Source: Myxococcota bacterium
GTDB taxonomy: Bacteria; Myxococcota; XYA12-FULL-58-9; JALHOP01
Length of the DNA: 64,000 nucleotides
Assembly: GCA_022842935.1 (NCBI GenBank)
Contig: JALHOP010000001.1
Coordinates: 434,001-498,000 of the forward strand
Direction of reading: 5' to 3'
The notes under the pieces were generated by a model. It made no database searches, had not been told where the DNA came from, and saw nothing but the letters and a program-made list of their open reading frames with translations. The stretch's first letter is position 1; every line of letters starts with the position of its first letter. A program made the position numbers and the translations under genes. Shown here one piece after another: positions 27,317 through 40,730 of this stretch.

Positions 27317-30300
27317 TCACAACGTCGTATCGATATACGCCTGCATATGCCCCAAGCGGTCGGTGAGTACGCGAACGACGCCAGCTAAGGTGTCGATCTC
27401 GAAGCGACTGCCTGCCTGCGTGCCCGTGTCCAAGCCGTCAGGGTCGAAGTCGATCTCGAACCATGTCGTTCGCTCGACGATGACATCGCGAAACCCGGAA
27501 GCCTGTGGCATCCGTGGGAGGAAGCTCGCGGCATCGGTTGCGCTACTCAATGGGTCGAGAGCGAATTCGGAAGCGCGCAGCCAATCTGGCGCGCCGACGA
27601 AAACACGGACCCGCGAACCGTCACCGGCGGCACCAGCGCGCCCGCTAAGCATCGGTAGCTCGACGATGACACCTCTGGGGGGCGTCGCGTTCAGATCGAG
27701 ACCGAGTCTGCGCTGGCCCGCCGCATCAGTCGCATCTAAGGGACCAAGGCGTGGGACGGGGCGCAGCCGTGGGCCGGTGTTGTCGCCGAGGCCAACGGCC
27801 GCGGGCTCGAGCCGTTGCAGCTCGATGTCACCGACGACGAGCTCAGCCGCAGTGAGCGGCTGCAAGAAGCGTCTCTCGAATCCCGCGGGCATGAGGTTTT
27901 TCACTCCGCCATCGCGGACCATGTGGGTTGGCTCGATGGTGCGACCAAGCCTTGCCGGGTTCGACTTTGACCAGCGTGTCGACTGGGGCGCGACGTCGCC
28001 GACGGCGACCAGAGTGGTCCCGGGGCGTGCGGCCCGTTTGGCGTCGCGTGCCCAATTCACTTGCATCTGATGCGTCGTCGCGATGCTGGTGACGACGTCA
28101 GAGGCGCCATCCGCGTTCAGGTCGACGACGGCGAGCGCGCCCGGCAGGCCCGTGCCCGCGGCTGTGGTGGCCGCGAGCGAGCCAGTGCCGAGCACCGCGC
28201 CTCGCTGGGTCTCGTAGACCGTTCGGTTCACGCCAGCCGCCGTGCCACTCATGAAGTCCGGGACGCCGTCGTTGTTGTAGTCGCCGACCGCGATAAACTG
28301 CTGACTGGCCGGCCCCACGACTCCGGCTGACACGAAGGTGCCGTTGCCTTGCGAGATGAGAAGCGTCGCTGCAGAGACGCCGACAAGGACGATGTCATCG
28401 CGACCGTCATCGTTGACGTCTGCGCTCGCAAGCCCCAGCCAATTGCCCGTGATAGCGGTGGATACCGTCGCGCCGAACCCCCCGCTGCCATTGCCGAGAC
28501 GGACAGCGACCGCGTTGCTCGCGCAGCCTGCAAAGTCCTGATCGGTGTCACCGTCGAAGTCGCCGACCACGACATCGTTCGGGTTGAGTCCGAGCGCGTA
28601 GGTGGTGACGGAGCCTGTCCAGGCCCCTGCCTGGACCGTTCCCAAGTAGACCTGCGCGTTGCCGGCGGAGGTGTTTGCGGCGACTAAGTCGGGCACGTCG
28701 TCTTCGTTGAAGTCGGCAAGTGCTAGCTCATCAGCGTTGAGCGCAAGCGCGGCCGTGAAACCAGGCGCGAAGGTCGTGTCGCCCCGATTTTCGTAGGTGA
28801 CCAAGGTGAACACGTTGAGCGGCGTGTTCTGGATGGTCGCAAGGTCGGCAAGCCCGTCACCGTCGAGATCGACGACGACGACATCGGCGACCTCGGAAGT
28901 CACCTCGATGACCCCGACCGGGTCGAGCACGCCGGCGGCGACACCGCTAAGACCGCGACCGCGCAGGAACGCGAGGCGACCGGATGGACTGTCGAACTGC
29001 GGTTCGCTTGCAGCGACGACATCGAGGATGCCGTCGATGTTCAGGTCGGCGACTGCGAAGGCGCCGGGCTCGACCACTGTGCTCGCCAGGGAGCTCACAA
29101 AACCCCCATTGCCGATGTAAGGGCTCGAGGCGGCAACACTGACCACCGCGAGCTGGAGCTCGTCTGGGTCCTCTGTTGCCACGATGATCTCACGTTGGCC
29201 GTTCCCGTCGAGATCGACCACTTCGACGCCAGACGGGAAGATGCTCACCTCTACGACCAACGGAGAGATGAAGGTCCCGTTGATCCTCTCGCTGTCGGTG
29301 ATGAAGAGGTTGTCAGTGCCGAGCGTGAAGAGCTCGTCGACACCGTCGGTGTTGAGATCCGCGGTTGTCATCGCCGCGAGCGAGTCGGCGAGCTCTGGGA
29401 GCAGCATCGTCTGCAAGACCTCGAAGCTTCGCGCGCCTGTGTTGGCGTAAGCCACAACGATGCCGCTTGGCAGGAAACCCACGGCAAGGTCGCGAGCGCC
29501 GTCACCGTTGAGCTCGCCGATGGCGACCTGCTGTGCGCCGGTTGGCCCAGTGTCTAGACGCACGGCGGTTGCGAACGGGGCCGCGCTCCCGTCCCCATAG
29601 AAGATCTCGAGATCGTCTCCACTCGCGACGGCGAGGTCGGCGCTCCCGTCTCCGTCGAGATCGCCCGTCGCGATACCGCGCGGCGGCGCCGCGGTTGTGA
29701 GGGAAAGCATCGGTGAGAAGGCGCCGGTGGTCGAGCCGGCGAGCACGCGGACCTGGTTGCTCCCGGTGCAGGTCACGGCAAGGTCGAGTGAGCCGTCGCC
29801 ATTGAAGCGGCCGGTGACGACCGCTGCAGGCTGCGGGCCGACCCCGTAGAGGACGGGTGTGAACGGCCCGGTCCCCGAAAGGAAGACGCGAATCTGGGCG
29901 CTGTTCTCATCCGTCGCGACGATGTCGTCGAAGGCGTCAGCGTCGAACCGCCCGACCGCGAGCGTGCGTGGGAACGCACCAGCTGCGCGCGTCAGCGTGG
30001 GTGCGACCGAAAATGTCCCACTCCCCAACCCTGTGTGGATGTAGAGGGAGCCGAACGAGAGATACGCAAGATCGAGGGTGGCGTCGCCTGTGAAGTTTCC
30101 GATGACCAGGTCTTGCGTTGGGTTTTGCAGATCGCGCTCTGCGGTCGAGAAGCCATAGGGTGCGCCGAGCTCTCCCACGGCGATCTCGGCCACCGCCTCG
30201 AGAGGGGCGTCGGGAGGGAAACCGTCGGTCGCGATGAGCCGCACGCGTCGCGGCAGCGAATCGACGCCGACACCGGCAGGGTCGAGCATGAGGACATGCC

Positions 30301-31489
30301 TCACGCCGCCACTGCCATCGCTCTCATCGGGCGCGGCGGCGAGGTCAAACATGCCTTCGCTGATTGGAGCAGGATACTCGTTGATCGCCGACCAAGTGAT
30401 GCCGTCGACAGAGACCTCGGCGCGAAGATCGACGCGGTCATTCTCTTCGTCCATCAGTACATACGTGAGCGCAAAGCGCCCCGTGCCTGTGGCGCCGAGC
30501 ACGCGTTGAACCTCCAGCGCGTCGATTTGCGGCGGCGTTTGGTTGCGCACCGCGCCCACGGCTCGGGCCTCGGACCACGGGCCGGGATAGGCGAGCGTGC
30601 CTTCCGGATGATCGACAGCGCGCGCGCGTAGCTCAACCCCATTCGCCCAGATGCGGCCCACGCCTTGTGGCGCCTCGGGGTCGTCGTTGAGCGGCGTGTC
30701 GGTGCGCCAGGCGACGAGGTAGAGGTTACCGTCGGGCGTCGAGGGCACATCGGTCACCAGGTCGAAGGCGATGTCGCAGCGACGCCAGGTGGGATCGTCG
30801 CGGTATCGGAAGTCCACCTCGATGTCGACGTCGTCGGCGGCCACATCGACCAGGTTCATCTGAACCGCGAGCAGGCCTGCGTAGCTCTCCCGTTCAAAGG
30901 GACGTAGGTCGGCCACCGCGAGAGTATTGCCAATAGCGAACACCTCGCTGACCGCGAAGGAGCTCGTGAGCCCCGTTGCATCGGTGGCACGCGCGCGGAG
31001 TCTGATTTGTGGCGCGTAGGCGACGAAGCCTGCTTCAGCTACGCCTAAACCGCCGACCGAAGCAGCTGCGTCCGCTAAAGCGTTCCAGCGATAGACGCCT
31101 TGTAGGTTGCGCTCGTCGATGCCGGTCAGCGGGCCGTCCGCGGGTGTCGCCGGGAACCAGGTCTCGCTCGTCGCGCCGACTGAAAACTCGAACGCCAGCG
31201 TCACACGATCGCCGCCGGGGATGTTGCGGTCGTCGGCCGTGAACGGCACGTCGATGACGTCGACGAAGCGGGGACCGGCCGCCGGGCGGATCGACCCGAG
31301 GGCGAGGGTGGGTTGCACGGGGCGGTCGGTTGCGCCCTCGACGCAGCGATTGATGTCGACGTCACAGCTAAAGCCGCTTGGACACTCACCCTTGGGTCCG
31401 CAGGTGATGATGGCGTCGCCGGCGCTCAGGTCGAGAGAGCACGCTGACAACGCCATCAGCGCGGGGAGGAAAAAGTAGCGGTACGCCAT
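27317..31489 (-). CDS. Giant FG-GAP/VCBS-repeat surface lipoprotein
   Basis: A 1390-residue lipoprotein: signal MAYRYFFLPALMALSACSLD with lipobox LSAC, then a Cys-rich segment (CGPKGECPSGFSCDVDINRC) common in myxobacterial surface proteins, two beta-sandwich-like regions, and about fourteen FG-GAP units from roughly residue 480 to 1160. Each unit has a calcium-loop pattern such as GDLDGDGSADLAV, GELNGDGARDLAV, ADLNIDGILDVV or GDYNNDGVPDFM. Such repeats fold as a beta-propeller and bind ligands or carbohydrates. The C-terminal 230 residues lack repeats. It is divergent from the rhomboid operon (257-bp gap). The precise ligand is unknown. Confidence 0.9.
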   Translation of the reverse strand: MAYRYFFLPALMALSACSLDLSAGDAIITCGPKGECPSGFSCDVDINRCVEGATDRPVQPTLALGSIRPAAGPRFVDVIDVPFTADDRNIPGGDRVTLAFEFSVGATSETWFPATPADGPLTGIDERNLQGVYRWNALADAAASVGGLGVAEAGFVAYAPQIRLRARATDATGLTSSFAVSEVFAIGNTLAVADLRPFERESYAGLLAVQMNLVDVAADDVDIEVDFRYRDDPTWRRCDIAFDLVTDVPSTPDGNLYLVAWRTDTPLNDDPEAPQGVGRIWANGVELRARAVDHPEGTLAYPGPWSEARAVGAVRNQTPPQIDALEVQRVLGATGTGRFALTYVLMDEENDRVDLRAEVSVDGITWSAINEYPAPISEGMFDLAAAPDESDGSGGVRHVLMLDPAGVGVDSLPRRVRLIATDGFPPDAPLEAVAEIAVGELGAPYGFSTAERDLQNPTQDLVIGNFTGDATLDLAYLSFGSLYIHTGLGSGTFSVAPTLTRAAGAFPRTLAVGRFDADAFDDIVATDENSAQIRVFLSGTGPFTPVLYGVGPQPAAVVTGRFNGDGSLDLAVTCTGSNQVRVLAGSTTGAFSPMLSLTTAAPPRGIATGDLDGDGSADLAVASGDDLEIFYGDGSAAPFATAVRLDTGPTGAQQVAIGELNGDGARDLAVGFLPSGIVVAYANTGARSFEVLQTMLLPELADSLAAMTTADLNTDGVDELFTLGTDNLFITDSERINGTFISPLVVEVSIFPSGVEVVDLDGNGQREIIVATEDPDELQLAVVSVAASSPYIGNGGFVSSLASTVVEPGAFAVADLNIDGILDVVAASEPQFDSPSGRLAFLRGRGLSGVAAGVLDPVGVIEVTSEVADVVVVDLDGDGLADLATIQNTPLNVFTLVTYENRGDTTFAPGFTAALALNADELALADFNEDDVPDLVAANTSAGNAQVYLGTVQAGAWTGSVTTYALGLNPNDVVVGDFDGDTDQDFAGCASNAVAVRLGNGSGGFGATVSTAITGNWLGLASADVNDDGRDDIVLVGVSAATLLISQGNGTFVSAGVVGPASQQFIAVGDYNNDGVPDFMSGTAAGVNRTVYETQRGAVLGTGSLAATTAAGTGLPGALAVVDLNADGASDVVTSIATTHQMQVNWARDAKRAARPGTTLVAVGDVAPQSTRWSKSNPARLGRTIEPTHMVRDGGVKNLMPAGFERRFLQPLTAAELVVGDIELQRLEPAAVGLGDNTGPRLRPVPRLGPLDATDAAGQRRLGLDLNATPPRGVIVELPMLSGRAGAAGDGSRVRVFVGAPDWLRASEFALDPLSSATDAASFLPRMPQASGFRDVIVERTTWFEIDFDPDGLDTGTQAGSRFEIDTLAGVVRVLTDRLGHMQAYIDTTL

Positions 31490-31746: not shown

Positions 31747-33657
31747 ATGCAAACCGAGACCTCAACCGACATCTTGCGGTTGACCTTCCGCAAGCCCGCT
31801 TTCTGGTCGGGGACGCTGCTCTTCACCATGGTGGTCTGCGCCGTCGCCTCACTCAGCCTCGTCCGCGCCGATGGACAGGTAAACCTCTTGTGGACCGGGA
31901 GCCTTGCGCTCGTGTGTCTCGGGGTGATCGTGGCGAGGGCAGTGCGCTTGCCGCGCTTCGTGCCACCCATCGAGCTTGGCGCCAACCGATTCGCCATGCC
32001 CACCTCGGCGGACTCGAAGAGGGCTGTGGAGCTCGAGTACAGCGACCTGCGCGCGCTCAGCCTGCGCCAGCGCGGCTCCCAGCAGATCCTGGTCGTCGAG
32101 ACGACGCGGGGCCTGTTCATGTTTCCCGCGGCTGCCTTCACCGATCCGAACGCCATCGAGCGTTTCTTCGTGGGCCTACGCGAGCGCCTGCAGACGCTTC
32201 CGAACGGTAGCGATGTCCTCGATGTGATGGCGCGTCGGGAGGAGTTGATTCGGCGCGTGCTCGGTCAGCGGCCGACCGTCACGTACGTGATTCTCGGTAC
32301 ACTCCTCGTGGGTCTCGCGGCGCAAGTGTTCATGGGTGCGCTCACCGACGACGGTGACATCATCAAGATCAGCAGCCTGGGCGCTAACGTTCCCGAGCTG
32401 GTGCGCGCTGGCGAATGGTGGCGGCTCGTGACCGCGAGCTTCCTGCACGGCAGCTTTCTGCACATTTTCGTCAATGGCTTGTCCCTCATCGTCGTGGGCC
32501 AGATCGTCGAGCGCATCATTGGTCCGTGGCGGCTCGCCATCGTCTATGTGGTCGCGTGCGCGGGCGGGGCGCTGGCGTCGGCGGTACTCGGGGTCGGTAG
32601 CGTGTCGGTGGGCGCCTCCACCGGCATCTTCGGCATCTTCGGGGCGCTTGCGGTTTGTAACTGGCACTACCGCAGGGAGCTCGCTCTGGGGTTCAAGCAG
32701 CCGCTCGAGCTCTGGGCCTTCAACATCTTGCTCAACCTGCTCTTGCCTTTCCTGTTCCCGTTCATCGACCTTTGGGGCCATATCGGTGGCCTCGTCGCTG
32801 GCGCACTCATGACCTACATCCTGGTCGCGCCGCACGCGCAGCTCGTCTACAACCGCCCGGCTGGTGGGCTCGTGAAGGTTGCCGGCGCGCTCACTGTCAC
32901 GGCCGTCGTCATCTGCGTTGGCTTCGCCGTTCGCAGCTCCGTGACGTTGAACGACGCTCGCATCCTCGCCCTCGCCGAGAACAGTACGGACTCGGGATGG
33001 ATGAACGCGGTCGCTTGGGAGGTGGCGCGGCGCCCTGATGCCGCCCCGGAGAGCATCGCTGGGGCGACGCGTGTCGCCAAGCGCGCCCTCGAGCATAGCA
33101 AGGGCATCGGCGAGGTAGGGCAGGTGCGCGACACCTATGCGACGTTGCTCTACAGGGGCGGCGCCTACGACGACGCGCTCGATAGCGAAGACAAAGCGCT
33201 CCGCGAAGCATCCGCTTTCGCGGAGGAAATTCAGCAGCCTATCGATATCGTCCTCGGCGCGCAGCTTGGACGCTTCCTCGATGCACGCTACAAGAAGCTG
33301 GGAGTGCGGGCGGCTGGCTTCGACCCGTCGCAGCTCCACGTCGCCATCGTTGGCCAGGGGCTGCGTATCCAGCTCGATCGGCCAGCGCCCAAAGGGCTGG
33401 TCGCGTACGGACTGCTCAAGCGGGGTAGCGCCCGCGAAGGTATCGTCCGCGTGACTCTTGGACCCGATCGGGCTGCCGAGCGCGAGCATACGATTCCGTT
33501 CGGCGCTGCCGTCGTGCGTGGGGTCGATCTGATGCGCAACCCGCAGGGACTCGAGGTGGTCATCGCCTGGGTGGACGCGAACGATTGTCGCTGCGATGCT
33601 TCGTCGTACGAGGTGCGGTTTTGGCCGCACGACACGAGCATCGATGGATACCCCTAG
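31747..33657 (+). CDS. Rhomboid intramembrane serine protease with extra N- and C-terminal regions
   Basis: A 636-residue protein. Residues 20-65 hold two hydrophobic segments, followed by a soluble PH-like stretch (about 70-160). The rhomboid core spans about 175-365, with WWRLVTASFLHGSFLHIFVN (His239 and Asn243, the oxyanion positions), the catalytic serine Ser291 in VGASTGIFGIFG, and the catalytic His345 in WGHIGG. After a further hydrophobic segment (380-395) comes a helical region with TPR-like character (LLYRGGAYDDALDSEDKAL) and a beta-rich end with a CRC motif. ATG 31747 is chosen over an in-frame TTG at 31732. The next gene, another rhomboid, overlaps its end by 14 bp. Rhomboids cleave membrane proteins; the substrate is unknown. 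Confidence 0.92.
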   Translation: MQTETSTDILRLTFRKPAFWSGTLLFTMVVCAVASLSLVRADGQVNLLWTGSLALVCLGVIVARAVRLPRFVPPIELGANRFAMPTSADSKRAVELEYSDLRALSLRQRGSQQILVVETTRGLFMFPAAAFTDPNAIERFFVGLRERLQTLPNGSDVLDVMARREELIRRVLGQRPTVTYVILGTLLVGLAAQVFMGALTDDGDIIKISSLGANVPELVRAGEWWRLVTASFLHGSFLHIFVNGLSLIVVGQIVERIIGPWRLAIVYVVACAGGALASAVLGVGSVSVGASTGIFGIFGALAVCNWHYRRELALGFKQPLELWAFNILLNLLLPFLFPFIDLWGHIGGLVAGALMTYILVAPHAQLVYNRPAGGLVKVAGALTVTAVVICVGFAVRSSVTLNDARILALAENSTDSGWMNAVAWEVARRPDAAPESIAGATRVAKRALEHSKGIGEVGQVRDTYATLLYRGGAYDDALDSEDKALREASAFAEEIQQPIDIVLGAQLGRFLDARYKKLGVRAAGFDPSQLHVAIVGQGLRIQLDRPAPKGLVAYGLLKRGSAREGIVRVTLGPDRAAEREHTIPFGAAVVRGVDLMRNPQGLEVVIAWVDANDCRCDASSYEVRFWPHDTSIDGYP

Positions 33658-35389
33658 CTCCACGCGGGAAAATGCCGTGACGCTGCCGCTTCGCCGTTCG
33701 CGCGTCGGCACGTCGTTTTTTGGTTTCGCTGGAGACAAGGCGCCCGCGCATCAGGTCGAGCTTCACCCCGATCACCTCATCGTGCCGGCGGGCCACCTCA
33801 GTACCCGGCGCGTCGAGATACCGCTCGACCAGGTTACCGGTCTGCGTATCGTGCCCGAGTTGGCGCGTTCGCTCCTCACCATCGAGGCCGGCGCGCGTGT
33901 CTTCAATCTCGGCTTCGGGGGAAGAGCCGCGCTTCAGGCGGCGCGCAGCTTCGTCACGGCGACGCGCGACCGCATAGGGAGCCAGCCGCACGGTGATCTC
34001 ACCCTCCAGCGTATCGCGGCACGCGAGGCGGAGGTCGAGGCGCTTGTCGCGCACCGCGCACGCTTCGCTTGGCTCGTCGTGCCACTGCTGTTCGCTGCGT
34101 ACTTCGCGCGGCTTGGTCTCGCTGAAGCGGTCTTCGACTTGGACTACTTCGGCGCCAGCGCTCGCGCATGGCTTGCGGCGGGCGAGCTCTATCGCCTCGT
34201 GACTGCCGCCTGGCTGCACGCGAATCTCTGGCACATCGGTGGCAACCTCGTCGCCATCGTATGGTTGGGCTACGCCGTCGAGCGAGCGCTCGGTGTGTCG
34301 CGTCTCATCCTCATCATGACCGCAGCGACCCTCGGCAGCGCGCTCGGCTCGACCTGGCTCACCTTCGGGCACACGATCGGCGCTTCGGGGGTCGGCATGG
34401 GGCTTGCGGCCGGCTTCGCCGTTGTCGCCATCATGTATCGGCGCGAGCTACCGCGGCCGATCGCACGCCCCGCGTGGTGGTGGATGGTCTTCGTTTTGTT
34501 GCTGGCGCCATCGCCCGACGGTCCCGGCCCGTCCGCCATCGACCACGCCGCACACGCAGGCGGTGCTTTCGGTGGTGCGCTCGCGGCTTACGTCTTGTGC
34601 GCGCGACGTCCGTTGTCACGGCTGCGGCGACCCGATCTACGTTGGCTTGCTGGTCTTGCGGTGCTCCTGCACGTCGCTGCCCTGGGCATGATGAGCTACC
34701 GCGTCGTCGTGACATCGCCGCTGGGAGAGCTCCAGCGCCTCACCGCACTCGTGCGCGAGAAGCGGCTTTCAGCGCACGAGGCAAACGCGATCGCGTGGGG
34801 CTTCGCCATCAAAAAGAACGTCGAGCCAAACCTTCTCCAAGCCGCCTTGCAGCTCGCGGACGCAGCGCTCCAAGTCGCCCCGCGCGACATCGGCCTCGCC
34901 GACACTGTCGCGACGTTGCATCATCGCACCGGCAGTGACCGCCGGGCCGCCGAGCTCGAAGCGCGCACCCTGGACGATGTCGCCGAGGCCTTCGACGCTA
35001 CCGGCTTTGCGACACAGCTCGCACGTTTCCTCGCGGCCGCGCCGCCTGTCCAGTCCGGCATCACCATTGAGGCGAGCGATCGTCAGGTAAGGGTGGCGTT
35101 CGCCGACAGCGCGCTCGGACTTGCCGAGTCCGGCGTGACCATCTACGCAGTGGCTCTGCGTCACGGTCGCATCGAAGGCCTCATCCGCTTGCGTCTCGGA
35201 GCTGGTCAACGCGAGCGCTACGTGAAGGTGCCAGCGCCGACCGACAGCATCTGGAATGCCATGAGCACGCCAATCGCCCCGGATGCCGACTACGGCATCA
35301 TGCTGGTGCGCAGCGGCTGCGGCTGCAAAGACGGCTCCTCCATGCTTAATGTCTGGGCGGTCAATCCCGAGGTTCTCGGCTGGCCATGA
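33644..35389 (+). CDS. Second tandem rhomboid protease, divergent paralogue
   Basis: A 581-residue paralogue of the preceding protein with the same layout: an N-terminal PH-like beta stretch (residues 35-115), a rhomboid core at about 140-320, and helical repeats and a beta-rich end with a CGC motif. Catalytic residues are kept: His197 and Asn201 in LWHIGGNLVA, Ser248 in TIGASGVGMG, and His304 in HAAHAGGAFG. It lacks the N-terminal hydrophobic pair of the first copy. ATG 33644 overlaps the first gene by 14 bp. mutM starts 9 bp after its stop. Both C-termini share the phrase [VI]AW or IMLV followed by a Cys-rich loop, implying common descent of the whole fusion. Confidence 0.9.
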   Translation: MDTPSSTRENAVTLPLRRSRVGTSFFGFAGDKAPAHQVELHPDHLIVPAGHLSTRRVEIPLDQVTGLRIVPELARSLLTIEAGARVFNLGFGGRAALQAARSFVTATRDRIGSQPHGDLTLQRIAAREAEVEALVAHRARFAWLVVPLLFAAYFARLGLAEAVFDLDYFGASARAWLAAGELYRLVTAAWLHANLWHIGGNLVAIVWLGYAVERALGVSRLILIMTAATLGSALGSTWLTFGHTIGASGVGMGLAAGFAVVAIMYRRELPRPIARPAWWWMVFVLLLAPSPDGPGPSAIDHAAHAGGAFGGALAAYVLCARRPLSRLRRPDLRWLAGLAVLLHVAALGMMSYRVVVTSPLGELQRLTALVREKRLSAHEANAIAWGFAIKKNVEPNLLQAALQLADAALQVAPRDIGLADTVATLHHRTGSDRRAAELEARTLDDVAEAFDATGFATQLARFLAAAPPVQSGITIEASDRQVRVAFADSALGLAESGVTIYAVALRHGRIEGLIRLRLGAGQRERYVKVPAPTDSIWNAMSTPIAPDADYGIMLVRSGCGCKDGSSMLNVWAVNPEVLGWP

Positions 35390-37281: not shown

Positions 37282-37986
37282 GTGGCCGAGGTCACGATAA
37301 CAGGCGGCGTGAAGTCGTCGCATGCGCGTCGGGTTTCTTCGTCTCCCGAGCCAACCGAGGTCCGCCTCGGTCAATCACCTCTGCCCGGGCGCCCGGCGAG
37401 CGATCTCGAGCGGTTGCGGCTGGGAGCTGCAGACGAGGCTCTGTCACGCGGCGCGAGGCTCAGCGCCGGTGTCTCTGCGATCGCGGACGGGACGTTTCGG
37501 GTCGGTCCCAAGCACACCTGGCATGCCATCAAGGCGAAGCCGTTGCGCTACGCCATGCTCCTCGGTGGCTTGGGCGCGGCGGGAGCGGGCCTCATGGCGG
37601 CTGGTGTCAATCCGGCGCCCTATACGATCGGCTTAAGTCTCTTGGTGTGCGGTTGGGCGACCTACTGTGCTCTGCCCGAGATGCGTAGTTGTCAGGGGCC
37701 CGATCGTCTGCGCAGCATTGGCGCCAACGCGTTGTGGCCGGCGGCGCTCTGCGTGGGAACCGCCGTGGGCGGACATCCATTGGGCATTGATGCGCCTTTG
37801 ACCAGCGCGGGGCCTACCGATCTTCTGAAAGCGGGGGCCCAGACCGTCGTCATCGGCGCGGATATGCCAACCATCGTACAGACTGTCCTCGATGTTCCCG
37901 AAGGTGCGCGAGCTCAGCGCAAGTTCCGCAGATGGTTGTTCGGCCGCGGACCTGCGAAGGCACCCGATAGCGCCGGTGAGTCGTAG
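37282..37986 (+). CDS. Uncharacterised protein with hydrophobic central segments
   Basis: A GTG start gives a 234-residue protein. The first 45 residues are polar and Pro/Ser-rich, and a central pair of hydrophobic stretches follows (YAMLLGGLGAAGAGLMAAG and YTIGLSLLVCGWATYCAL). The C-terminal half contains VVIGADMPTIVQTVLDVPEG and a basic tail (RAQRKFRRWLFGRG). No strong ribosome site is visible, and the start is uncertain. It precedes the two hydroxylase-like genes by 126 bp and may belong to the same unit. No family is recognised. Confidence 0.6.
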   Translation: MAEVTITGGVKSSHARRVSSSPEPTEVRLGQSPLPGRPASDLERLRLGAADEALSRGARLSAGVSAIADGTFRVGPKHTWHAIKAKPLRYAMLLGGLGAAGAGLMAAGVNPAPYTIGLSLLVCGWATYCALPEMRSCQGPDRLRSIGANALWPAALCVGTAVGGHPLGIDAPLTSAGPTDLLKAGAQTVVIGADMPTIVQTVLDVPEGARAQRKFRRWLFGRGPAKAPDSAGES

Positions 37987-38112: not shown

Positions 38113-39318
38113 GTGTTCCTCGGTAGCGTCATCCACCCGAATTCCTTCAATGCAACCGAGTCTGTTGCCGCCCAAGATGCCTTTGCCCAGATGCGTCGCG
38201 CCGCCGCGTTAAGCGGCTCGCGCTTCGTGAAAACGGACGAGCCCGATGCGGCGGCCCGCAGCGGGCTCGACACCTGGGCGGCGCGTCTCGCGCAGGCGCC
38301 AAGCCTCTCGGTGCTCGAGTACACCGGTCTGCTTTATGCCGCCCGCAACGGCACGCTCGCGGACGAGAAGAGCGCGCTCGAGACGCTCCGGCGGGCCTGG
38401 ACGCAGCTCACTTGCCTTCCCGCTCCGACGAACATCCTCGCGCGCCGCTTGCCGATGTACGTGCTCGCTGCGGCGTCTCGCGATGAGCGGTTGTTTCATG
38501 TGGCGGTGTTTCGCGGCGACAACGAAGCGCCAAGCAGCGTGCGTGGGTTGCGGGACATGGTCCCGAGCTATCGGCAACTCGCAATGGCCGCTGGGGTGGC
38601 TGGTGCCTGCGTGATGTCTCCCTTCGTCGGCGCGGCGTTAGCAGGTGTCGCCACGACGGTGCTCGTTTCGGCGGTGGCCGAAGCGGTCATGCACGACCAC
38701 GTCGGCCATGCGTCGCCCGAAACCATGAAGAAGCTCGAGCGCTTCCCGCGCGTCCACGCCTATGTAGAGGGGGCGCGCTATGCCCATGCGGTCGTGCACC
38801 ACGGCATGACCTTCAAGGACTACGTGACGCAGTTTCGCGATGAGGACCATCGAGCGCAGGTCGATGGCATCATCAAAAAGCAACGCGGTGAGAAGCACTG
38901 GGCCTATATCAAGAAGAACGGCTACGGGACCTCAATGGGCCTGCGGGCGGCCCTTCAGTACGTCGCGCCGTTGTCACCGTTCCTCGTTGGAGCCGCCGCT
39001 CTGACGGGCTTCAACCCAGCTTTTGTTCTGGGGATGCTTCCCGCGTTAGTCGCGTACCCTATGTACTCCGCGGCTGTGCATGACTTCTTGCACAAGCAAA
39101 TGGAGAAGGTGGAGATCACTGCGGGTCCGCTTATGCGGACATATCTGTCGACCGCGGTCGCGCGTCTCACCTCTCGTCAGCATTGGGACCACCACCGCGG
39201 CAGCCACCGCAACATGAATCTCAGTCCCGGTGCGATCGGCGACCTCGTGGTCGGCTCGTTCGTGCCCCTTAGTGTTCCCAAGCTCCTCGAGGTGCGTAGG
39301 CTGGAGATCGTGCGATGA
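38113..39318 (+). CDS. Membrane di-iron hydroxylase-like protein, copy 1
   Basis: The 401-residue protein starts at GTG 38113 after GAGAGGCG. Hydrophobic segments are about 155-195 and 285-320. The histidine boxes expected of the fatty acid hydroxylase/sterol desaturase superfamily occur in order: HDHVGH, HAVVHHGMTF (Hx3HH), HDFLHK (Hx3H) and HWDHHRG (Hx2HH). These would hold a di-iron centre for oxidising a lipid or similar substrate. The N-terminal 140 residues are extra and of unknown role. Its stop overlaps the start of its paralogue by 4 bp. The substrate is not predictable. Confidence 0.72.
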   Translation: MFLGSVIHPNSFNATESVAAQDAFAQMRRAAALSGSRFVKTDEPDAAARSGLDTWAARLAQAPSLSVLEYTGLLYAARNGTLADEKSALETLRRAWTQLTCLPAPTNILARRLPMYVLAAASRDERLFHVAVFRGDNEAPSSVRGLRDMVPSYRQLAMAAGVAGACVMSPFVGAALAGVATTVLVSAVAEAVMHDHVGHASPETMKKLERFPRVHAYVEGARYAHAVVHHGMTFKDYVTQFRDEDHRAQVDGIIKKQRGEKHWAYIKKNGYGTSMGLRAALQYVAPLSPFLVGAAALTGFNPAFVLGMLPALVAYPMYSAAVHDFLHKQMEKVEITAGPLMRTYLSTAVARLTSRQHWDHHRGSHRNMNLSPGAIGDLVVGSFVPLSVPKLLEVRRLEIVR

Positions 39319-40730
39319 TGCCGCCTCGCATCGTACGAAGCGCGACCGCGCCTCGCACCTTGCCCATGGTGACCGCGAGCTCCAACACGCGGTGCATGTT
39401 GCCGCAAGCAAGCGCTGCACCGGCTGCGCAGTGGGTGACACAGTACAGCGAGCATCTGCGCGCGGCGGTTGGGATCTCGCCTGCGATGGCCACGGGGGCG
39501 TTGCAGGCGCTTGCCGACGAGCAAGCCTTAGCGGTGCTGCGCGGCGTCGTTCTCGCGAAGGGGAAGCTCGACGGTATGAAGCCCGAAGTCATCGGCTGGG
39601 CACACGCGCTGGCTGGCAAAACCAGTCTGACCGTGATCGAGCACACGGCAGCAGCCTACATTGCGCGCTCCGGGATGTTCGCTGACGAGCCGGCGATCGG
39701 TGCGATTCTCGATGGCACGGTTCGCAGGAGCTGGTGCCGCCTTACCGGAAGTGACGCGGGCGATGCCTTTGGCCGCTTACCGAGACCCGTACTGCGCCGC
39801 GCGAGCCGCAAAGCACGTGTTTACCATGCGGCATCGTTTCAGCCGGCTTGTGGCCTGCGTCACCCGGAGGATCTGCGGGCCCGCAGGGAGGCCTCGAGTC
39901 TCCTGCGTAGCTACGTGCCTGAGAATAGCGACATTGCGGTTGCCACGGCTGCCATGCTCGCCATGGCGTTCACGCATACCGGCGCGCCGCTCATCGCTTC
40001 CGGTCTCCTGACCTTCGGCGTCTTCGCGCTAAGCGAAGCCATTTTGCATCGCTTCGCGGGCCACCAGCACCCGGATGGGTTCGCGCACTGGATCAAAAAT
40101 CCTATCCCCTCGGAAACCCCGTGGCTCAAGCGCAAGTTGCACGCCGCGCTTCATAAGGTACTCGCCCAGCCGCTCGAGCGGACACGTGTCTCACATGGAG
40201 TCGTCCACCACCACCTCACCTTCAAGTCGTTCACGCGCATGTTCGACAGCGCAGAGCACAAAACACGGGTCGATGCCTTCATCGCCAAGCTTCCGCCGAA
40301 TATCGCGAGAGGCATTACCGAGGAGCGTTACGGATCGACTCTGTCGCTTCTCGGATGTGTCCGTGTGTTGCGCTCGGTTGCCCCCCAGACCGCAGCGCTG
40401 GTTCTCGCCGGCGTAGCCTTTGGCGCGCCACCTATCAGTGCGCTGCCGGTCGCGCTCATCGCCCTTTGCTTCCCGCTATCGATGGCGCGGGTTCATCCGC
40501 AGCAGCATGTCGACAGAGACAAGGCCCAAGCAGAGTCGGGGCCGGCGGTACGACGCATTCTAGCGACGCGCTGGGCCGCCTGGTCGACTCGCAGCCACGA
40601 GCTGCATCACGAGGGCCCCTGCAACTACAACCTCGCCTTCCCTGGGGCTGACTCCCTGCTGGGTACCTACGTGGAGCCTAACCTCGAAGACCTCTTCCGC
40701 ATGGACGACGCGCGGGCGCACTACTACTGA
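39315..40730 (+). CDS. Membrane di-iron hydroxylase-like protein, copy 2
   Basis: A 471-residue paralogue of the upstream gene, aligned over its length. The His boxes are kept: HRFAGH, HGVVHHHLTF, HPQQH and HELHHEG. The shared block around VVHH-TFK and the final HxxHH region are the best conserved. The ATG overlaps the previous stop (ATGA), so the pair is probably translated together and may form a heteromer. The end of the gene is followed by the tandem repeats downstream of the sigma-factor gene. The superfamily call rests on the His pattern and membrane segments. Confidence 0.72.
   Translation: MMPPRIVRSATAPRTLPMVTASSNTRCMLPQASAAPAAQWVTQYSEHLRAAVGISPAMATGALQALADEQALAVLRGVVLAKGKLDGMKPEVIGWAHALAGKTSLTVIEHTAAAYIARSGMFADEPAIGAILDGTVRRSWCRLTGSDAGDAFGRLPRPVLRRASRKARVYHAASFQPACGLRHPEDLRARREASSLLRSYVPENSDIAVATAAMLAMAFTHTGAPLIASGLLTFGVFALSEAILHRFAGHQHPDGFAHWIKNPIPSETPWLKRKLHAALHKVLAQPLERTRVSHGVVHHHLTFKSFTRMFDSAEHKTRVDAFIAKLPPNIARGITEERYGSTLSLLGCVRVLRSVAPQTAALVLAGVAFGAPPISALPVALIALCFPLSMARVHPQQHVDRDKAQAESGPAVRRILATRWAAWSTRSHELHHEGPCNYNLAFPGADSLLGTYVEPNLEDLFRMDDARAHYY

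Follow-up and report, generated by a model that had tools for sequence, protein, structure and literature searches.

A 64,000-nucleotide stretch of the genome of a Myxococcota bacterium (assembly GCA_022842935.1, contig JALHOP010000001.1, positions 434,001 to 498,000; hereafter the window, in which all coordinates are given) carries two overlapping rhomboid genes, here called gene A and gene B. A and B are homologous, have intact active-site residues, share the same domain order, including TPR helices behind the rhomboid core, and belong to an architecture that recurs in other genomes. The architecture resembles that of YqgP/GluP, with an N-terminal domain that is probably different. We favour, by a modest degree of confidence, the reading that A and B are client-recruiting rhomboid proteases or adaptors of the YqgP type, forming a pair that is seen in this genome only.

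Gene A (31747..33657) is an open reading frame (ORF) of 636 amino acids from an ATG and encodes a membrane hairpin, a PH-like domain, a rhomboid core, TPR helices and a beta tail, while gene B (33644..35389) is an ORF of 581 amino acids from an ATG and encodes a second rhomboid of the same architecture without the N-terminal hairpin; both genes and all their features lie on the plus strand. The ATG of gene B (33644) is located inside the end of gene A, giving an overlap of 14 nucleotides (nt), and mutM (Pfam Fapy_DNA_glyco) starts 9 nt 3′ of gene B. Alternative starts are possible at an upstream TTG (31732) for gene A and exist at a GTG (33677) for gene B. The GC content at third codon positions (GC3) is of the coding type in both genes (0.78 for gene B versus 0.82 for gene A). 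Both proteins match Pfam Rhomboid PF01694 (gathering score 22.6), A at 6.1e-30 with 104.7 bits and B at 6.2e-23 with 82 bits, and the genome holds five PF01694 matches.

The alignment of the two proteins starts at the PH-like domain, runs through to the final residue and has 26% identity (581 columns, E 5e-25; slightly longer ORF starts were used for both genes in this alignment). The flanks common to A and B are real, because the N-terminal parts (BLAST, 91 residues, E 2e-5) and the C-terminal parts (E 1e-6) each align alone. A first-pass annotation of the window had described two overlapping, active-site-complete rhomboids with common flanks, and it was exact in the catalytic residues that it named: Ser291 (32617..32619) and His345 (32779..32781) of A, located by alignment and a site table, and Ser248 (34385..34387) and His304 (34553..34555) of B, located by sequence and alignment. 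Both Ser/His pairs are invariant when A and B are aligned with three homologues. The HxxxxHxxxN motif is complete in both proteins (A, H234/H239/N243; B, H192/H197/N201) and invariant across the same sequences; the roles given to these motifs are those known from GlpG, where the His/Asn motif forms the oxyanion hole. Both proteins contain the full rhomboid site pattern, namely a serine in GxS, a histidine downstream of it, and the His/Asn motif. Both score below the curated cut-off of the GlpG equivalogue family TIGR04239 (28.9 and 37.8 bits for A and B, against 250 bits).

The structure of A was predicted from a five-row alignment with a predicted local distance difference test score (pLDDT) of 74.5 and a predicted template modelling score (pTM) of 0.61, and secondary structure was assigned by DSSP; the model of B is poorer (pLDDT 64.8, pTM 0.50), and a Foldseek search with it had no hit that reached E 0.001. 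The GlpG-like rhomboid core of A (residues 177–360; 32275..32826) superimposes on the GlpG structure 5f5j_A by VIA-align with a Z score of 18.3 and a root-mean-square deviation of 2.7 over 177 residues, and the core of B (residues 135–319; 34046..34600) is delimited by Pfam and alignment. In A only, a two-helix membrane hairpin (residues 22–66; 31810..31944) precedes the PH-like domain; hydropathy peaks at residues 18–42 and 44–66 coincide with predicted helices at 22–42 and 47–66, for which the pLDDT is low. Behind the core, a seventh transmembrane helix is predicted in A (residues 374–400; 32866..32946; hydropathy 371–402) and in B (residues 329–356; 34628..34711; hydropathy 332–357). The loop before this helix is basic in B and slightly basic in A, which agrees with a cytosolic loop.

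The helical region after the core is a TPR domain in both proteins, identified in A (residues 403–518; 32953..33300) by fold and family profile, and in B (residues 359–465; 34718..35038) by the helices of the model and alignment to A. Specifically, the helices of A match TPR domains such as those of LGN, Fis1 and CHIP with Z scores of 12–13, and the C-terminal family profile matches an engineered TPR protein with a best E of 2.6e-25, summed over five stretches. A Z score near 13 can reflect a common arrangement of helical repeats, but here fold and profile agree. With E values up to 1 allowed, no single Pfam TPR model matches more than 3 of 12 members, and none matches A. The repeat-like helical region noticed at first pass is helical as described, and can now be named as TPR.

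A C-terminal beta domain follows in A (residues 521–627; 33307..33627; delimited by DSSP, no family assigned), and a beta tail is predicted at the corresponding place in B (residues 473–572; 35060..35359; model and alignment to A). The list of VIA structure matches barely reached the tail of A. CcmI/CycH was considered for the beta domain and set aside, as only 1 of 12 C-termini matched its TPR model, at 0.032. The cysteine-containing end proved to be a CxC motif, found by motif scan of the sequences at C614-x-C616 of A (33586..33594) and C559-x-C561 of B (35318..35326), and in none of the 15 other members of the family set defined below, among which L112 is incomplete at a contig end and the L063 row had been trimmed. 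A CxC confined to A and B would fit a recent duplication or convergence. Taken as predictions, the models of A and B show the same order of PH-like strands and helix, TPR helices and beta tail.

The N-terminal domain of A (residues 75–150; 31969..32196) is predicted to fold into six strands and one helix, and B contains a PH-like domain or its remnant (residues 36–112; 33749..33979), recognised by BLAST to A, with strands at 56–91 and a helix at 94–112. A PH-like assignment is moderately supported by a profile match and one predicted fold. In particular, the N-terminal alignment of the family pairs in register with a set of eight bPH_2 proteins, of which this genome supplied one and relatives seven, over 79 columns (hhalign, E 1.4e-4, probability 53); none of 199 scored column shuffles (200 made) did as well, and the reversed alignment gave E 0.23. 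The bPH_2 gathering cut-off (PF03703) was reached neither by 12 family N-termini (E up to 5) nor by A and B (E up to 1), and an N-terminal profile search of the PDB gave nothing relevant. Of the earlier description of the flanks, the beta-rich front stands; their being the same throughout does not, as the hairpin belongs to A only. Elsewhere in this genome, a stand-alone protein of 164 amino acids (L148:1453-1947) has a similar domain (E 1.9e-5) and no Pfam match.

The closest comparison is YqgP/GluP of Bacillus subtilis, made here against its published description (PMC7231995). That text describes an N-terminal domain in the cytosol, then the rhomboid core, then a TPR domain outside the cell, the last a likely binder of protein or peptide ligands, and A and B share the arrangement of N-terminal domain, core and C-terminal TPR after the last helix. 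MgtE is cleaved by YqgP, which also acts to present it to FtsH; this second task does not depend on the protease activity of YqgP, and the adaptor role has been likened to that of eukaryotic Derlins (PMC7231995). A beta tail, present in A and B, is not mentioned in the portion of the description at hand. GlpG of Escherichia coli has the six-helix transmembrane core and Ser-His dyad in common with A and B, which add a PH-like domain, a seventh helix, TPR and a beta tail; to our knowledge, GlpG has none of these. Eukaryotic iRhoms and Derlins are pseudoproteases, and some members of the present family likewise lack catalytic residues and mostly keep their extra domains, whereas A and B keep the active site. 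iRhom structures top the Foldseek list for the model of A; the added domains of iRhoms and Derlins differ from those of A and B.

To see how widely the architecture occurs, profile searches of whole genomes were run across this phylum. An A-like profile (E 1e-20, at most six candidates scored per genome) matched 131 of 195 genomes, and among the matches listed most span the core only. A second search, with a TPR-plus-tail profile, covered 193 genomes and scored up to 15 candidates per genome. Its 14 matches that extend to profile position 200 or further all fall in rhomboids of a set of 17 members (A, B and 15 others) from 14 genomes that we studied further. A match in G099 ended at position 179 and crossed a stop; judged by the family profile, the ORF there is not a rhomboid, and its alignment is limited to the TPR part. 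The set excludes L067, L071 and L072, which have the PH-like domain and core with little or no TPR and no tail, the other rhomboids L074, L075, L076, L114 and the second rhomboid of L112, and L066 (G040 C309), a family member with one in-frame TGA and its C-terminal sequence in a separate ORF. Within the set, L070 has no PH-like part, L069 is truncated by the end of its contig, L112 is truncated C-terminally, and L158 was retained although the profiles recognise only its PH-like part and core, with no TPR or tail. For the site table, tree, CxC scan and active-row profiles, the L063 row was trimmed after residue 700 and the L113 row was used minus its first 130 residues. The first-pass annotation had named, as an outcome that would refute it, an architecture that is widespread and already characterised. 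This holds in part: the architecture recurs in the phylum, but we found no description of a PH-rhomboid-TPR family in myxobacteria in the open-licence literature, searched by titles and abstract openings.

In the site table, both the catalytic serine and histidine are missing from 5 of the 17 members (L014, L069, L073, L157 and L158), or from 4 of 16 if L158 is left aside. L014:623-2476, L069:8919-10304 and L157:7936-9885 form one dead clade (support 100/98) from three genera of one family; L073:8635-10560 and L158:8081-9994 fall outside it in the best tree, on long branches. The best tree needs three changes, and a single origin of all five is not rejected by the approximately unbiased test (p-AU 0.149). 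When profiles are built from just the 12 active-looking rows, the PH-like part is recognised in L014, L073, L157, L158 and L115, a fragment from another contig that is possibly the front of L069, and the TPR part is recognised in L014, L069, L073 and L157; the C-terminal part is not recognised in L158. Matches to the TPR-plus-tail profile extend far into the tail in L069 and L157, and reach some way into it in L073. Reading frames that have been kept for long, with their flanks mostly conserved but the active site gone, hint at a putative role without cutting. Because five of the 15 relatives are dead and four of these five keep recognisable flanks (counting L115 as the presumed front of L069), client binding or adaptor work is, judging from these sequences, probably an old part of the family's job.

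On the reading that A and B are recruiting rhomboids of the YqgP type, both would be placed in the inner membrane with the PH-like domain in the cytosol and a six-helix GlpG-like core in the membrane. The seventh helix would carry the C-terminus across the membrane, so that the TPR and beta domains would be periplasmic, where they may recruit a client or partner protein. The core would then cut clients or hold them in the membrane, or hand them to another protease, or do both, and the PH-like domain may anchor or regulate the protein from the cytosol. The A-B pair is probably a lineage-specific arrangement that widens or splits the client range.

Several observations weigh against this reading. 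The N-terminal domain of YqgP/GluP is described as restriction-endonuclease-like and metal-binding, whereas that of A and B is predicted to be PH-like, and the PH-like assignment itself has weak points: the trimmed domain alone matches bPH_2 only at E 0.0022 (probability 13), Pfam yields no family above the cut-off for any of 12 N-termini (DUF5924 comes closest, at 0.022), and bPH_5 appears in one of them at 0.3, below the Pfam cut-off. The core of B is modelled badly, with a pLDDT below 50 over residues 137–198. Among the dead members, the tail alone is recognised in one of five (L014); moreover, neither copy in the window looks damaged, and what A and B do need not follow from the dead relatives. 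No called neighbouring gene, the rhomboid itself excepted, is common to the window and the loci of relatives at E 1e-8.

The best-surviving alternative, which we regard as unlikely, is that B is a redundant or drifting copy that lost its hairpin under weaker constraint after duplication, leaving the work to A. Apart from the missing hairpin, B has the longer branch (1.68 versus 1.21 for A), a lower core identity than A to L064 (29% versus 43%) and L061 (31% versus 40%), and a methionine at a position where the other 11 active-looking members carry F, Y, L or A. Against drift stand an open frame of 581 amino acids, coding-type GC3, all active-site residues and flanks that can be aligned. The history of the pair bears on the earlier proposal that the fusion was duplicated as a whole. 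The shared architecture speaks for it; however, B lacks the hairpin, and the best tree groups B with L070 (support 88/76) and not with A. A tree constrained to unite A with B is not rejected (p-AU 0.13), and an earlier tree built on other rows left the positions of both unresolved.

Somewhat less probable is a scheme in which the conserved function of the family is non-catalytic, with the PH-like domain and the TPR and tail forming a client-sorting platform. Active copies would cut the clients, dead copies would deliver or protect them as a counterpart of iRhoms and Derlins, and a periplasmic A-B pair joined through its CxC motifs would supply two active subunits.

The first-pass annotation had suggested that A and B act as a dedicated two-step or hetero-oligomeric sheddase, with ordered cutting of a protein such as the adjacent FG-GAP lipoprotein, a proposal to which we give little credence. 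The gene overlap suggests co-translation, the CxC limited to A and B could permit a disulfide- or metal-linked pair, and there is a precedent for two rhomboids acting on one substrate, as RssP and GlpG are reported to cut VesB at different sites (PMC11389362). No positive evidence for such action emerged, however: none of the 15 other members adjoins a second family member on the contig stretches available (L063, L112 and L069 are visible from one side only, L158 has about 0.6 kb left on one side, and L014 is flanked by about 0.6 and 1.3 kb), the tree does not show A and B to be sisters, and nothing observed favours two-step action over two separate proteases. A second rhomboid does occur about 10 kb from L112 and matches the family profile over the core. 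The candidate substrate (27317-31489, minus strand), an FG-GAP repeat protein of 1390 amino acids with a lipoprotein-type start, divergent from gene A, was rejected: it has no terminal membrane helix, no hydrophobic segment after residue 1122 of 1390, and its strongest internal hydrophobic segment (residues 739–760, mean 1.61) sits among FG-GAP repeats. The suggested check of co-occurrence gave no homologue of it among the called neighbours at 15 other loci. The A-B pair is probably not a conserved two-step machine. The remaining alternative, that the family comprises rhombosortase-type sorting proteases for C-terminal surface signals, is very improbable, since the weak matches of A and B to TIGR03902 (36.9 and 37.6 bits), the family of the rhombosortase RssP with which they have the rhomboid core in common, lie far below the curated cut-off of 84 bits, and A and B differ from it further by their long flanks. 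A search of the genome for GlyGly-CTERM signals gave no match, and was uninformative as 14 of 14 controls gave none either.

A conserved operon was also considered and rejected: mutM adjoins gene B, but no called gene of the window other than the rhomboid matched the loci of relatives. Genes for this comparison were called by a simple GC filter at 15 other loci, with L157 and L158 outside it; the filter broke down in L073, a low-GC locus, and did not call the L063 rhomboid or the window's gene B, so that synteny is poorly tested at these places. Among the relatives, G004 and G007 have in common a TatD-like gene (labelled from reading the sequence, with no family call) beside the A-like gene, G006 and G007 have three other neighbours in common, one of which occurs weakly in G004, and L014 and L115 have one, which lies beside L014 and about 4.7 kb from the L115 fragment. 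A short way downstream in the window, two further plus-strand genes (38113-39318 and 39315-40730) form another overlapping tandem pair and encode related proteins (BLASTP, 31% identity, 387 columns, E 4e-36), both of which contain His-rich stretches by eye. At E 1, neither the first of these proteins nor a nearby ORF of 234 amino acids (37282-37986, plus strand) has a match in Pfam.

The functions of bacterial rhomboids are described as largely elusive (PMC7231995). Intact and dead members within one phylum, mostly with the same extra domains, together with a tandem pair, offer a handle on the work of the non-catalytic part. They raise the questions of whether the clients of active copies are also those of dead ones, and whether it is the extra domains that select them, and an answer would tie bacterial rhomboids to the adaptor role of YqgP.

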